From Pseudomonadota bacterium (GTDB taxonomy: Bacteria; Pseudomonadota; Alphaproteobacteria; Acetobacterales; Acetobacteraceae): a stretch of DNA of 5,360 bases. This document shows positions 1 through 5,360 of the stretch, piece by piece (position 1 is the first letter of the stretch; each line of letters opens with the position of its first letter). The position numbers and the translations under genes are program-made. The notes below the pieces were generated by a model. That model saw only the letters and a program-made list of their open reading frames with translations, was not told where the DNA came from and searched no databases. Location of the stretch: assembly GCA_021785335.1 (NCBI GenBank), contig JAJYFW010000163.1:1-5360 (forward strand). Reading direction: 5' to 3'.

Positions 1-456
1 ATACGGCGTATTGGCAAACACGCCTGGCAGGCCGTCGGAAAAACTGACCAGCGACAGGTTGATGGCAGGAAACAGGTAGGTCTGCTGCGCGGCGAAGTAG
101 GCCCGGGGCTACTCCGAGGACAGGATCGGTCCCGCGATCAGGGCCAGGAACAGCACCACCACCGCGAGCGCAGGAAGCAGCCGCAACGCACGGTTCACCA
201 CGAAGGCTACCGTGGTGCGGGTACGCTCGAAGCTCATGGTGATCAGGTAGCCGCTGATGACGAAGAAGATCGTCACGGCCAGGCTACCGCCCGTTGTTTG
301 CTCGCGGCTCAGGCGCCAGATCGGCTCGGCGCGATCGTCCCCGGCCAGCGCAAAGGCGTGGGAGGCCAGCACCATCACCGCCGCGATGGCGCGCAACGTA
401 TCGAAATTGTTGGCTCGTGCTCGTGCCAGCGCGTGCTCCGGAGAAGATGTCGCCAC
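1..456 (-). pseudogene. Acyltransferase-3 family membrane protein, broken by an in-frame TAG, 3' end outside window
   Basis: N-terminal part of an integral-membrane O-acyltransferase of the acyltransferase-3 (OafA/NodX-like) family, which usually acylates cell-surface sugars. The first 115 residues carry family hallmarks: FDTLRAIAAVMVLASHAF (residues 18-35, with Arg22 and His33), FFVISGYLIT (64-73), and R-x-x-R-L-L-P-A-L (89-97) leading into a hydrophobic segment. A TAG stop follows at 109-111. The same frame then stays open for 36 codons to the window edge and still reads as the family (YFAAQQTYLFPAINLSL, then LPGVFANTPY). One base change therefore seems to have truncated an otherwise intact gene; full-length members are about 350-400 aa. 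I chose the GTG at 456 because AAGGA sits six bases upstream; a GTG at 495 has no such site. Base composition is less GC-rich than hrpB, consistent with acquired surface-polysaccharide DNA. A sequencing error at the TAG cannot be excluded. Confidence 0.82.
109..111 (-). other. Premature amber stop inside the acyltransferase frame
   Basis: On the minus strand the codons read TCC TCG GAG TAG CCC CGG GCC TAC TTC, i.e. S-S-E-stop-P-R-A-Y-F. Family-like sequence lies on both sides in one frame. A single substitution from TCG, TGG or CAG would account for it. Confidence 0.8.
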
Positions 457-462
457 CCTGCG

Positions 463-467
463 TCCTT
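463..467 (-). promoter_or_regulatory. Ribosome binding site deciding the acyltransferase start
   Basis: The minus strand reads GGGGGGCAAGGACGCAGG immediately before GTG at 456. AAGGA with six-base spacing is a good Shine-Dalgarno match and is the reason for preferring this GTG over the one 39 bases upstream. Confidence 0.6.
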
Positions 468-517
468 GCCCCCCAGTTTTGCGGCGGCAAGCCACCGGGA
501 CTTCGTGTCACTTCCGG

Positions 518-588: not shown

Positions 589-915
589 TCACACCCCGCC
601 GATCAGCGCCATTGCCAGTTCCCGGATCGCGGCGAGTTCGTCCGCCGTCGCAGCCCCCTTCCGCAAGGCCTGCCGCGCGCGCCAATCCAGGCTCTTGACC
701 TGATCGGCCAGTGCGACGCTGGGCGGGGTCCCGGCCAACCTCACCTCGAACGGATAGCCCTTGATCCGCGTGGTGGTCGGGCAGCACAGCAGCAGCCCGG
801 TCCGCCCATTATAGGCCGCCGGGCTGAGCACGACCGCCGGACGATGCCCCGCCTGCTCGTGGCCCGCTTGCGGATCGAAAGCGAGCCAGACGATATCGCC
901 CGCCGCGGGCACATA
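589..915 (-). other. mazF: MazF-type endoribonuclease (PemK/MazF) domain of the fusion protein
   Basis: From YVPAAGDIVWLAFDP to the C-terminus (108 codons plus stop) this matches E. coli MazF (about 111 aa) nearly end to end: HEQAGHRPAVVLSPAAYN, then CCPTTTRIKGYPFEV, then VALADQVKSLDWRAR. From memory of the E. coli protein, catalytic Arg29 corresponds to Arg337 (GHRP) and Thr52 to Thr360 (second Thr of PTTT); Glu24 corresponds to Glu332. MazF cuts single-stranded mRNA at short motifs and is normally held inactive by MazE, encoded just upstream. Only the first few residues, including the usual Met, are replaced by HtrA sequence, and no mazE is visible anywhere in the window. Fused behind an export leader, the domain would probably sit outside the cytoplasm. 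Internal GTG codons exist, for example at 912, but none has a clear ribosome binding site. Confidence 0.88.
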
Positions 916-1851
916 GCCGCGCGCCGCGGGACCCCGCGGGATCACGCTCACGATGCGCACGCCGCCGGGACCCACGGGCGCGAACGGGTTCGCCCCGGAC
1001 TCGCCATTGAGCGTGACGCCGAGCCAGCCGCGCTGGATCGTGCCGTGCGCCTTGAGCTGGTCCACGATCCGGCTCACCAGCTCCGCCGGAATGGCGAAGC
1101 CGATGCCGACCGACCCGCCGGAGGGCGTGTAGATCGCCGAGTTCATGCCCACCACGCGGCCCTGGTTGTCGAACAGCGGGCCGCCGGAGTTGCCGGGATT
1201 GATCGGCGCGTCGAACTGGATGAAGTCGTCGAAGGGGCTGGCACCCAGGTCGCGGCCGAAGGCGGAGACGATGCCGGCGGTGACCGAGCCGCCCAGGCCG
1301 AACGGATTGCCGGCGGCGATGACCCAGTCGCCCACCTGCAGCGAGCGGCTGGAGCCGAACGTGACGTAGGGCAGCGTCCCGGGCGCGTCGATCTTGATCA
1401 GCGCAATGTCGGTGAGTTCGTCCGAGCCGACCAGGCGGGCGGGGAAGCTGCGCCCGTCCGAAAGCCCGACCACGATCTTGTCGGCGTTGCCGACCACGTG
1501 GTTGTTGGTGACGATCAGGCCCGAGGGATCGATGATGAACCCGGACCCGGCGCCGGTGAGGTGCTGCGGTTCCGGCGGCAGGCGGTCGCGGAACTTCCGG
1601 CGGATTTCGGGCGGCAGGTCGGCCAGCGGATCGCGGCCGGGGACCGTCTCCTCGACGGCGATGTTCACGACCGCGGGCAGGATGCGCTTGATCAGCGGCG
1701 CGAAGCTGCGTGGCCCGACCTCGCCCGCAGCCGCCTGGCCCGCGACGGGACCATCCGCGCGTGCCGGCGCGCAGCCGAGCAGCGGCAGGGTGCCGGTCAG
1801 CGCGAGCGCGCCCGCGAGCGCGGCGCGGCGGGGAAGGGGAGCAGGCGTCAT
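589..1851 (-). CDS. Deg/HtrA-like serine protease fused in frame to a MazF toxin domain
   Basis: A 420-aa chimera. Residues 1-32 form an export leader: MTPAPLPRRAALAG has a twin arginine, a hydrophobic stretch follows, and LLGC (24-27) is a lipobox, so an envelope lipoprotein or Tat substrate is likely; an alternative signal-peptidase cut is after ARA (30-32). Residues about 50-265 are a trypsin-like Deg protease with the full triad: His118 in TNNHVV, Asp148 in ELTDIALIKI and Ser222 in NPGNSGGPLF. A PDZ domain begins near QRGWLGVTLN (273) but stops after VIPRGPAARG (303-312), where 80-90 residues would be expected. Residues 313-420 are MazF. Such proteases degrade misfolded envelope proteins; without its PDZ domain, substrate handling should be altered. 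The ATG at 1851 is chosen because the signal peptide begins there; an in-frame GTG at 1905 would add 18 residues with no good ribosome site. The gene follows hrpB by 103 bases. Confidence 0.85.
   Translation of the reverse strand: MTPAPLPRRAALAGALALTGTLPLLGCAPARADGPVAGQAAAGEVGPRSFAPLIKRILPAVVNIAVEETVPGRDPLADLPPEIRRKFRDRLPPEPQHLTGAGSGFIIDPSGLIVTNNHVVGNADKIVVGLSDGRSFPARLVGSDELTDIALIKIDAPGTLPYVTFGSSRSLQVGDWVIAAGNPFGLGGSVTAGIVSAFGRDLGASPFDDFIQFDAPINPGNSGGPLFDNQGRVVGMNSAIYTPSGGSVGIGFAIPAELVSRIVDQLKAHGTIQRGWLGVTLNGESGANPFAPVGPGGVRIVSVIPRGPAARGYVPAAGDIVWLAFDPQAGHEQAGHRPAVVLSPAAYNGRTGLLLCCPTTTRIKGYPFEVRLAGTPPSVALADQVKSLDWRARQALRKGAATADELAAIRELAMALIGGV
903..940. repeat. Three 7-base CCGCGGG repeats at the htrA/mazF junction
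   Basis: CCGCGGG occurs at 903-909, 924-930 and 934-940. The copies bracket the point where HtrA homology ends and MazF homology begins (about 913-925). Short repeats like these can guide deletion by replication slippage or end joining, but they also arise by chance in DNA this GC-rich. Confidence 0.45.
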
Positions 1852-1954
1852 CGAAATCCGGTCCACAACCGATTCTGGCTGAAACGTGGCGTTTCGCGCC
1901 AGCACCTACAACCGCGCCGGGGACGATACGACTCACCCATGACTTAATTCGGCG
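1852..1954. other. Intergenic gap hrpB to htrA-mazF
   Basis: These 103 bases separate the hrpB stop from the preferred protease ATG. They contain a perfect inverted repeat (1881-1895) and, just before the ATG, a weak GGA ribosome-site core (1857-1859) five bases from the start. I could not identify a convincing -35/-10 pair. The gap leaves room for a separate promoter, so the protease need not be co-transcribed with hrpB. Confidence 0.4.
1881..1895. promoter_or_regulatory. Inverted repeat GAAACG-TGG-CGTTTC upstream of the protease gene
   Basis: Two perfect 6-base arms (1881-1886 and 1890-1895) flank a 3-base centre, 29 bases upstream of the ATG. The position suits an operator or a 5'-leader hairpin. 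It is AT-richer than its surroundings, which makes a chance palindrome somewhat less likely. No specific regulator is recognised. Confidence 0.3.
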
Positions 1955-4324
1955 TCAGCCGTTGGACGGATCCTCCGGCCACGCATGGCGGGGGTAGCGG
2001 CCGCGCATTTGGGCACGCGCCTCGCGCCACGCGCCACGCCAGAACCCCGCGAGATCGGTGGTCACCGCGATCGGCCGTCCGGCCGGCGAGAGCAGCGCCA
2101 GCCGCGGCACCACGCGGCCCTCGGCAAGGCGCGGCGTTTCCCTGAGCCCGTAGAAGGCCTGCGCGCGGGCGGCGGCGAGCGGCTCCGGCTCGGTGTAGTC
2201 CACCCGCGCCCGCCCGCCTGGAAGCGGGATCTCGACTGGCAGCAGCGTGTCGAGCCGATGCCGCAGCCGGCGGCCCAGCAGCTCCGCGAGCAGGGCAACG
2301 AGGTCGAGCTTGCCGGCGTCGGCGAGGCGGGTGCGGCCGTGGAGCGCTTGGGCGAGCCAGGCGCGGTCCGCGGCCAGCGCCGCGTCCGAGATATCCGGCC
2401 ACCCCTCGTCCGGAAACAGCCGCGCGGCCAGGGCCACACGGGCCTGGAGCTGGCGCGCCGCCTCCGTCCAGGGCAGCGAGGGCAGCGAGACCGCCTCCGC
2501 GAGCGCGCGCGCGGTCGCCTCGGGGTCCGCGGCGATGCTGCGGTCCTCCAGGATCAGCGCGCCGAGCCGGCGGCGGCGCCGTGCGATCACGGCGCCCTGC
2601 ACCGGGTCGAATCCCGCTTCCTCGGCGACCGTGACCCTGGCCGCGACCGCCTCGGGCAGGTCCGCAGGGTCGAGCGGCGCCGCGAGCCGGATCGCCGTGC
2701 CGCGCGAGGCCTGGACCGCGGCGACGGCGAGGAACGGGGCGCGGGCCAGCGGATCGGTGAGCGGCAGCGAAGCTCCACCGCCGCCGGCGAGGCGGAAGCT
2801 TCCGGGCTCCCGGCGCTGGGCGATGCGGTCCGGGAAGGCGGCGGCGATCAGGCGGCCGGGATCGCCCTCGGCCGCGGCCCGGGTCCGCAGCCGGTTGCGG
2901 TACATGTCGGCGGTGCGACGGATGGCGCCGAGCCGGCGGTCGCGGGCGAGCGCCTCGAGCCGCAGCGCGATATCGGCGCTCGCGGCCTCGCGCAGCGGGT
3001 CGCGCTCCTCCAGCAACGCCGCGATGTCGGCGGCCAGCGCTGCCTCCGCCGGTGTGCGGGCGGCCAGCATCATGGCGGCGAGCCGGGGATGGGCGCCGAG
3101 TTCGGCCATGCGCCGTCCCGCCTCGGTGATGCGTCCGGCTTCGTCGAGCGCACCGAGGCCGCGCAGCAGTTCGGTCGCGGTGGCGAGCGCCGCGGCGGGC
3201 GGCGCGTCCGGGAACGGCAGCGATTCCGGCGCGGCGCCCCAGGCGGCGCAGATGAGGCAGAGCGGGGCGAGGTCGGCGGCGAGGATTTCCGGCCGGTCCG
3301 CCGGCGGCAGGCCGCGGTGCAACGCCGCGGTCCAGAGCCGGATCGCGACGCCCGGTCCTTCCCGCCCGGCGCGGCCGGCGCGCTGGGTCGCGGCGGCGCG
3401 GCTGATGCGCACCGTGGTGAGCCGCGTGAGGCCCGAGCCGGGGTCGAACACCGGCGCGCGGCGAAACCCCCCATCGATCACGATGCGCACGCCGGGGATG
3501 GTGAGCGAGGTCTCGGCGATGGAGGTCGCGAGCACCACGCGCCGGCGCGCGCCGGGCGTGAGGGCCGCAAGCTGGGTGGGGGGCGGCAGTTCGCCATGCA
3601 GCGGCAGCACGTCCGCGCCGCAATCCCCGAGCGCCTCCTCAGTGCGACGGATCTCCGCCATGCCTGGCAGGAACACCAGGATGTCCCCCGCCTCGCCGCG
3701 CAGCGCGTCGCGCACCGCGCGGGCGGCTTCCTGCGGCAGGTCGCGGGGATGCGCGAGGTCGCGCCTGGCGTGACGGATCTCGGTGGGGAAGGCGCGGCCC
3801 TCCGCGGCGACGACGGGGCCGGCAAGGAGCGCGGCGAGACGTTCCGTGTCCGGGGTCGCTGACATCGCGAGCAGGCGCAGTTCCGGGCGCAGCGCCTGCA
3901 CCTCGCGGCACAGCGCCATGGCGAGGTCCGCCTCCACACTGCGCTCGTGCACCTCGTCGAGGATCACCAGCGACACGCCGTCGAGCCCGGGATCGGCGAG
4001 CAGGCGGCGGACCAGCAAGCCCTCGGTCAGCACCTCGATGCGCGTCGCGGGGCCCATGGCGGATTCGATCCGGGTACGAAACCCGATCAAGCCGCCCGGT
4101 GCCTCGCCGCGCTCCTCGGCCATGCGCGTCGCGGCGGCGCGGGCGGCGAGGCGCCGCGGCTCCAGCATCACGATGCGTCCGCCCCCGATCCAGTCCTCGC
4201 CGAGCAGGGCGGGCGGCACGCGCGTGGTCTTGCCGGCGCCGGGCGGGGCGACGAGCAGCGCTGCATTGTGTTCGCGCAGCGCTGCCCGCAGCGCCGGCAG
4301 GGCCGCCTCGACAGGAAGCTCCAT
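1955..4324 (-). CDS. hrpB: ATP-dependent helicase HrpB (DEAH-box)
   Basis: A complete 789-aa DExH/DEAH-box helicase of the HrpA/HrpB group, cytoplasmic; HrpB members are about 800-850 aa. The motifs appear in order: Walker A APPGAGKTT (26-34, Lys32); Ia LEPRRLAAR (54-62); TEGLLVRRLL (100-109); Walker B DEVH (123-126) followed by ERS; SAT (155-157); LVFLPGMAEI (216-225); ATSIAETSLTIPGV (266-279); and QRAGRAGR (314-321). A helicase-associated region follows. The C-terminus carries the HrpB-specific tail TDLAGFWRGAW, then GRYPRHAWPEDP, which separates it from HrpA. NTP-driven RNA unwinding is expected from the family, but the physiological role is poorly defined. GAGGG lies three bases before the ATG, inside the preceding gene, and the ATG shares one base with that gene's TGA, so translation is probably coupled. 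Nothing appears broken. Confidence 0.96.
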   Translation of the reverse strand: MELPVEAALPALRAALREHNAALLVAPPGAGKTTRVPPALLGEDWIGGGRIVMLEPRRLAARAAATRMAEERGEAPGGLIGFRTRIESAMGPATRIEVLTEGLLVRRLLADPGLDGVSLVILDEVHERSVEADLAMALCREVQALRPELRLLAMSATPDTERLAALLAGPVVAAEGRAFPTEIRHARRDLAHPRDLPQEAARAVRDALRGEAGDILVFLPGMAEIRRTEEALGDCGADVLPLHGELPPPTQLAALTPGARRRVVLATSIAETSLTIPGVRIVIDGGFRRAPVFDPGSGLTRLTTVRISRAAATQRAGRAGREGPGVAIRLWTAALHRGLPPADRPEILAADLAPLCLICAAWGAAPESLPFPDAPPAAALATATELLRGLGALDEAGRITEAGRRMAELGAHPRLAAMMLAARTPAEAALAADIAALLEERDPLREAASADIALRLEALARDRRLGAIRRTADMYRNRLRTRAAAEGDPGRLIAAAFPDRIAQRREPGSFRLAGGGGASLPLTDPLARAPFLAVAAVQASRGTAIRLAAPLDPADLPEAVAARVTVAEEAGFDPVQGAVIARRRRRLGALILEDRSIAADPEATARALAEAVSLPSLPWTEAARQLQARVALAARLFPDEGWPDISDAALAADRAWLAQALHGRTRLADAGKLDLVALLAELLGRRLRHRLDTLLPVEIPLPGGRARVDYTEPEPLAAARAQAFYGLRETPRLAEGRVVPRLALLSPAGRPIAVTTDLAGFWRGAWREARAQMRGRYPRHAWPEDPSNG

Positions 4325-4332
4325 CAGCCCTC
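4324..4332 (-). promoter_or_regulatory. Ribosome site GAGGG and stop/start overlap (TGATG) for hrpB
   Basis: GAGGG (4328-4332, minus strand) precedes the hrpB ATG (4322-4324) by three bases. The amidohydrolase TGA (4324-4326) overlaps that ATG by one base. This geometry is typical of reinitiation-coupled genes in one operon and fixes the hrpB start. Confidence 0.65.
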
Positions 4333-5360
4333 GAAGGCGGCGCGGGCCTCGGGCAGCGCCCAGATGCGCGCCACGGCGGCGGTGCCCGCGGCCGCGATCG
4401 CCGCTTCGTCGCCCTTCGTGTAGCGGCCACCGGCGATAAGGTGCTCGCCATCCACGAACACCTCGGCGATGTCGGCGCGGTTGGCGAGCGCGATGAGACC
4501 GCGGCGCGGATCGGCGAGGGGCTGGAGTTGCGGATGGGTCATGCCGACCACGGTGAGGTCCGCCGTGGCGCCCGGCGCGATTGTTCCGAGATCGGGACGG
4601 CCGACGGCGGCGGCGGCCTGCGTGGTCACGGCACCCAGAAGTTCCGGCGCGGTCGCGACATCCGGCTTGCCGAGCGCGATCTTCGAGATCGTCGAGGCCG
4701 CGTGCAGCTCGCCCAGCATGTCCGCGTTGTAGCCGTCGGTGCCGACCAGGGTGCGCACGCCGTGCGCCGCGAAGCGGCCGAAGGCGGCGACGGTTCCGGC
4801 GCGGGCGAAGACGCGCGGGCAGTTCAGCACACTGGCACCGCGCGCGGCCATCAGGCGCAGGTCGGCGTCCGTCGAATCGATGCAGTGCGCGGCCAGCAGA
4901 TCCGGCGCCAGCAGGCCCAGCCAGTCGAGATATTCCGCAGGCGTCCTCCCCGCATGGCGCGCGGCAATGGTCGCCAGCTCGTCCGGGCTCTGGGCCATGT
5001 GGGTGGTGAGCGGCACGCCGTGCGCGCGGGCCCGCGCGGCGGCCTCGCGCAGCAGGTCGGGGCCGCAGGTATCGGTTGCGTGCGGCGCCATGGCGAGGTG
5101 GATGCGGCCCTCGGACGCACCCTCCCAGCGCGCGTGCAGCGCCGTCCACGCGGCGAGGTCGGCGGCGCCGTCGTCGCCGGCATAGCGCATCGTGCCGTCA
5201 GGCTGGATTCCGGCGTCGGCTGTGGAGAACACGTAGGGCGCGCCCCAGAAGCGGATGCCCATCTCCGCCGCCGCCTCGAACATCTCCGGGATGCCGTTGC
5301 GGAACAGGTCCATCACACTGGTGATACCGCCGCGCAGCAGCTGCAGAATGCCAAGCCGGG
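4324..5360 (-). CDS. Amidohydrolase, TRZ/ATZ (chlorohydrolase/deaminase-like) family, 5' end outside window
   Basis: The frame is open from the right edge (first residues RLGILQLLRGGITSVMDLF, a family signature), so the real start and the N-terminal HxH metal motif lie beyond 5360; 345 residues are visible. The family hydrolyses C-N or C-Cl bonds on purine- or triazine-like rings using one divalent metal. Visible active-site candidates are the His of MAPHATDT (codon near 5082), the metal His of TTHMAQSPDE (near 5001), the His of LLAAHCIDST (near 4887) and the metal Asp of LVGTDGYNADM (near 4737). The Glu expected three residues after the second His in AtzA/TrzN-type enzymes is Gln here (HMAQ). 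The C-terminus shows the usual beta-sandwich return, ADLTVVGMTHPQLQPL then VFVDGEHLIAGGRY. The substrate cannot be assigned. It is the upstream partner of hrpB in a coupled pair. Confidence 0.88.
   Translation of the reverse strand, partial: RLGILQLLRGGITSVMDLFRNGIPEMFEAAAEMGIRFWGAPYVFSTADAGIQPDGTMRYAGDDGAADLAAWTALHARWEGASEGRIHLAMAPHATDTCGPDLLREAAARARAHGVPLTTHMAQSPDELATIAARHAGRTPAEYLDWLGLLAPDLLAAHCIDSTDADLRLMAARGASVLNCPRVFARAGTVAAFGRFAAHGVRTLVGTDGYNADMLGELHAASTISKIALGKPDVATAPELLGAVTTQAAAAVGRPDLGTIAPGATADLTVVGMTHPQLQPLADPRRGLIALANRADIAEVFVDGEHLIAGGRYTKGDEAAIAAAGTAAVARIWALPEARAAFEG

Follow-up and report, generated by a model that had tools for sequence, protein, structure and literature searches.

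The HtrA-MazF protein encoded in the window (the whole stretch of 5,360 nucleotides that was analysed) is most likely the product of an accidental join of two unrelated loci, most likely an assembly artefact, and does not represent a new protein family. Similarity to the closest htrA locus breaks at a short word, the peptide encoded by this word is common to HtrA and MazF proteins, the relatives carry an intact htrA in a conserved gene order, and the mazE gene expected upstream of mazF is missing. The window contains the following features, all on the minus strand:

109..495, minus strand: start of an acyltransferase gene (Acyl_transf_3, Pfam 60.8 bits) with an in-frame TAG, on the mazF side of the junction
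589..920, minus strand: mazF-derived part including the stop codon (NF007386; 96% at the amino acid level to P0135 over the 111-residue query)
921..939, minus strand: junction word of 19 nt, a near-palindrome, encoding PRGPAA (residues 305-310) plus one base; position of the alignment break
940..1851, minus strand: htrA-derived part, residues 1-304, with an export leader, the trypsin-like protease (Trypsin_2) and the first part of a PDZ domain (94% at the amino acid level to L001 over 304 residues)
1955..4321, minus strand: hrpB, ATP-dependent helicase (TIGR01970, 839.7 bits), a conserved htrA neighbour whose order is kept in relatives
4324..5358, minus strand: amidohydrolase (Pfam PF01979, part 4324-5316), running off the window end; hrpB neighbour in four genus genomes

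The fused frame and its domains

Positions 589-1851 (minus strand) form a single open frame of 420 codons with no internal stop, which extends to 438 amino acids if started at an upstream GTG (1905). The original prediction had described one uninterrupted frame running from a protease with an intact triad into a MazF with its catalytic Arg and Thr, and these points held. For the protease, Trypsin_2 was matched at residues 102-236 of the 420-aa protein (127.6 bits, Pfam cut-off 27.6), and the triad His118, Asp148 and Ser222 was invariant in an alignment of 10 sequences, so that the trypsin-like domain of a Deg/HtrA protein is present. For the toxin, PemK_toxin was matched at residues 317-411 (80.9 bits, Pfam cut-off 23.1), and positions 4-111 of the 111 positions of the MazF profile NF007386 were aligned with residues 312-418 (165 bits, cut-off 120), a match over the full length of the family. 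R337 and T360 align with the catalytic Arg29 and Thr52 of E. coli MazF (1ub4); as regards RNA cleavage, it is these residues that are seen to be conserved. The MazF part had been called almost complete; compared with P0135 it is effectively complete, the sole residues missing being the native Met-Ala that precede the shared PRGPAA.

The second half of a Deg/HtrA protein is lacking. Similarity to HtrA ends at about residue 310, and the PDZ domain is cut mid-domain after about 38 residues, as had been predicted. No Pfam PDZ match was obtained in the 420-aa protein at E <= 0.001, and the complete PDZ domain of the Deg/HtrA architecture is thus absent; PDZ families are present in P0002, the closest intact HtrA among the matches listed. 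With the NCBIfam profile degP_htrA_DO, positions 2-283 of 434 were aligned with residues 49-321, and the 323.8 bits obtained lie below the curated cut-off of 416.2, a value that the intact HtrAs of this lineage may or may not reach. The AlphaFold model of the 420-aa protein was of low confidence (mean pLDDT 51.1) and too poor to judge the fusion.

The junction

For the position of the join, the window was compared with L001 (JAJZUI010000041.1, a contig of MAG SKS4.bin26), which is 92.6% identical to it at the nucleotide level over 3634 bp. The strict local alignment ended at 921, after ...CCGCGGGG(T/A)CCCGCGGCGC; past the break, L001 continues into the rest of the PDZ domain and the window into mazF. 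The more permissive gapped blastn alignment extended to 890 via an AGDIV stretch, which is also common to HtrA and MazF proteins. The predicted junction interval of 880-960 contained the break, and was narrowed by it to 921-939.

The closest stand-alone MazF among the matches listed, P0135 (118 aa, 96% over the 111-residue query), has the N-terminus MAPRGPAARGYVP / MAPRGPAARGYVPAAGD (MAPRGPAARG), and P0002 reads VIPRGPAAHAGL / VIPRGPAAHAGLRAGD (PRGPAAH) at the junction. PRGPAA is therefore common to both parents, lying in the PDZ domain of htrA and at codons 3-8 of mazF, and the alignment break at 921 places the join on this peptide. As P0135 was compared as a protein, the identity of the two parents at the DNA level would span 19 to about 23 nt, and the strain's own mazF would carry the same 19 nt. 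Both parents translate the word in the same reading frame, which makes every fusion at this position an in-frame one.

At least six shared residues were found in 135 of 14,400 HtrA x MazF pairs (120 listed matches of each search). When four htrA genes were compared with 31 mazF loci from relatives (four of the 31 repeat a genome), the longest shared DNA word was 8-14 nt in the 124 pairs. In the window, the 19-nt word is present at a single position, against a chance expectation of 0.01 if up to two mismatches are allowed. A search of the four genus genomes that tolerated one mismatch gave a single match, with one mismatch and inside htrA itself, and the reversed control matched once in each of two genus genomes. 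A dispersed repeat at the junction is therefore unsupported.

Gene order and mazF in relatives

The genus group comprised G001 (the genome of L001), G199, G156 and G099. The order amidohydrolase-hrpB-htrA with full tail-response regulator-histidine kinase was found in all four genomes, the amidohydrolase of L001 being cut by the contig end. The next six loci in the DNA comparison (L002, L003, L005 and L006 from Acetobacteraceae MAGs, L045 and L054 from Proteobacteria MAGs) all carried hrpB, htrA with its tail, the response regulator and the histidine kinase, with hrpB only partial in L005 and L006. Two tandem htrA genes lie between hrpB and the response regulator in L045 (7178-9432) and L054 (9960-12382). 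The response regulator and histidine kinase are followed by groEL in L001, L147 and L148, on the opposite strand in L001. Between three and six htrA-like matches were obtained per genus genome. Over 304 codons, the htrA part of the window differs from L001 by 39 nt in synonymous and 20 nt in non-synonymous codons. Unusually long stop-to-stop frames were also seen around mazF (530 and 646 aa) and around htrA (1112 aa) in L097, G342:C456 and L103; these are probably spurious frames of GC-rich DNA.

The mazF of the window had no match in any of the four genus genomes, and no mazF was found in loci L001, L147, L148 and L149; a different PemK-family match was obtained in one of the four genomes. 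The search was able to find mazF, since this query gave matches in 49 of 200 family genomes and the P0135 query in 105 of 397 genomes. The native mazF DNA of the strain was not found among these sequences, the best mazF of the family genomes being 77-78% identical. In viral contigs the best match was 75% identical, and a pattern scan gave no matches.

Within 330 nt upstream of mazF, a mazE-like sequence was present in all 58 loci examined, of which 27 were viral and 31 came from family genomes (the four repeats included). The window gave no match to this mazE query, and a MazEF type II toxin-antitoxin module was thus not recognised in it.

On the mazF side of the junction, the otherwise continuous acyltransferase frame is broken by the in-frame TAG at 109-111 (minus strand), and similarity resumes in the same frame past the TAG in three relatives; the TAG may reflect a pseudogene or a sequencing error. 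The acyltransferase matched one of the four genus genomes, weakly, and 125 of the 200 family genomes (best identity 66%); it belongs to a common family and gives no clue to origin. A mazF beside an acyltransferase was seen in none of 59 mazF loci, a weak result because many of these loci have short flanks. Across the junction, GC content drops from 74.7% (940-5360) to 67.0% (1-890), a weak step given that 14 of 109 genus-mate windows had GC as low.

Search for related fusions

For the full-length protein, 8000 proteins were scored; the best 120 listed carried a protease label and none carried PF02452. For residues 300-420, searched among 1022 candidates of about 231-735 aa, 13 matches were obtained, 12 with PF02452 and one (P0134) without a label, and none with a protease or PDZ label. 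The 420-aa protein of the window was itself absent from both sets of matches (the best 120 of 8000 and the 13). Among the 13 matches, P0122 is a 245-aa protein with a tandem pair of MazF domains, and in P0128 a MazF start runs into a part of the group-II-intron reverse transcriptase type (PF00078, PF08388). Homologues spanning the junction were thus not found among the matches listed, and a known fusion family is unsupported. The literature search on MazF fused to HtrA or to a serine protease found no such protein; in passages of PMC5408214, HtrA is mentioned only in connection with prlF.

Origin of the fusion

We consider it probable that the window is an assembly chimera joined at the shared word. 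One parent would be the amidohydrolase-hrpB-htrA block, which is conserved, from an Acetobacteraceae-like bacterium, and the other a mazF with an acyltransferase gene behind it. The join at the PRGPAA word (19 nt here) would have arisen in work on a metagenome sample, either during assembly or through library chimerism, the window being, we infer, a metagenome contig with an artificial join; the 420-aa protein would then not exist. This reading is favoured by the stop of the strict L001 alignment at the word shared by P0135 and P0002, by the intact htrA in 4/4 genus genomes against 0/4 with this mazF, by the mazE found in every mazF locus examined and not in the window, and by the matches listed, which contain neither a fusion relative nor the fusion protein itself; the GC drop and the in-frame stop of the adjoining acyltransferase point the same way. 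The smallest k-mer of common assemblers is 21. With 19 nt, or an estimated maximum of about 23, the shared word lies at or near this value, so an assembler join would not be automatic, which speaks against a chimera. Passages of PMC8171044 describe one benchmark in which chimeras, as that paper itself defines them by BLAST, were frequent among the contigs.

The sequence would look identical after an assembly error and after a real recombination, and microhomology recombination, which is ordinary biology, fits the shared word at the break equally well. It is thus possible, at somewhat longer odds than an even chance, that illegitimate recombination between the shared words put the mazF region into htrA in a recent, strain-specific rearrangement. 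The rearranged gene would encode an exported HtrA with an incomplete PDZ domain, whose MazF part would lie beyond the cytoplasm, separated from the RNA that it normally targets and lacking mazE; HtrA and MazF would both lose their normal function, and export of the toxin would make this tolerable. Compared with L001, the htrA part still shows signs of constraint, so such a rearrangement would be young, and the other HtrA-like genes of the genus could make the loss of this htrA tolerable. However, it would break the hrpB-htrA-response regulator-histidine kinase order kept in 10/10 loci (two of them with a second htrA), and it is absent from every other sequence among the matches listed. The original prediction had offered a deletion as the cause of a fortuitous fusion. 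The fortuitous origin agrees with the shared peptide, the intact htrA and missing mazF of the closest relatives and the lack of a spanning homologue among the matches listed. A simple deletion between neighbours is unlikely, because everything downstream of htrA (response regulator, histidine kinase and, in L001, groEL) would have to be lost and because mazF was not found in the L001 genome.

That the protein evolved as a bifunctional unit, through selection for an RNase domain fused to a periplasmic protease, is very improbable. The two intact active sites and the uninterrupted frame are all that speaks for the new two-domain protein proposed as the alternative, but the frame is fixed by the shared word alone and says little about maintenance, of which it had been read as a possible sign. 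The PDZ domain cut mid-domain, the missing mazE and the lack of a two-domain homologue among the matches listed also count against it. We give still less credence to a real, expressed and exported HtrA-MazF acting independently of MazE as an RNase in the periplasm or outside the cell, cutting external RNA (e.g. of neighbours or phage).

If the fusion were real, loss of function would be likely: with its leader the protein would be exported, so that MazF could reach neither the RNA of the cytoplasm nor MazE, and the shortened PDZ domain would weaken the control over substrates. A single short word common to two genes can be enough to create an in-frame "new architecture": provided that both genes read the word in the same phase, the fused frame remains open and the two active sites appear intact. 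For domain fusions claimed from a single contig, the junction should be checked for a shared word and for intact parents.

Comparison with known systems

The htrA part resembles Deg/HtrA proteases of the Do family (closest P0002 and L001) in its leader, its His-Asp-Ser triad and its neighbours on the hrpB-amidohydrolase side, whereas its PDZ domain stops after about 38 residues and is not continued by the htrA tail, the response regulator or the histidine kinase. The mazF part shares with MazF toxins (PF02452, NF007386; closest P0135, 96% over 111 residues) the full-length core and the Arg29/Thr52 equivalents, but its Met-Ala start is replaced by HtrA, no mazE lies upstream and an export leader is present. 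With chimeric metagenome contigs, the window shares a break at a short word of two loci whose intact parents are found elsewhere.
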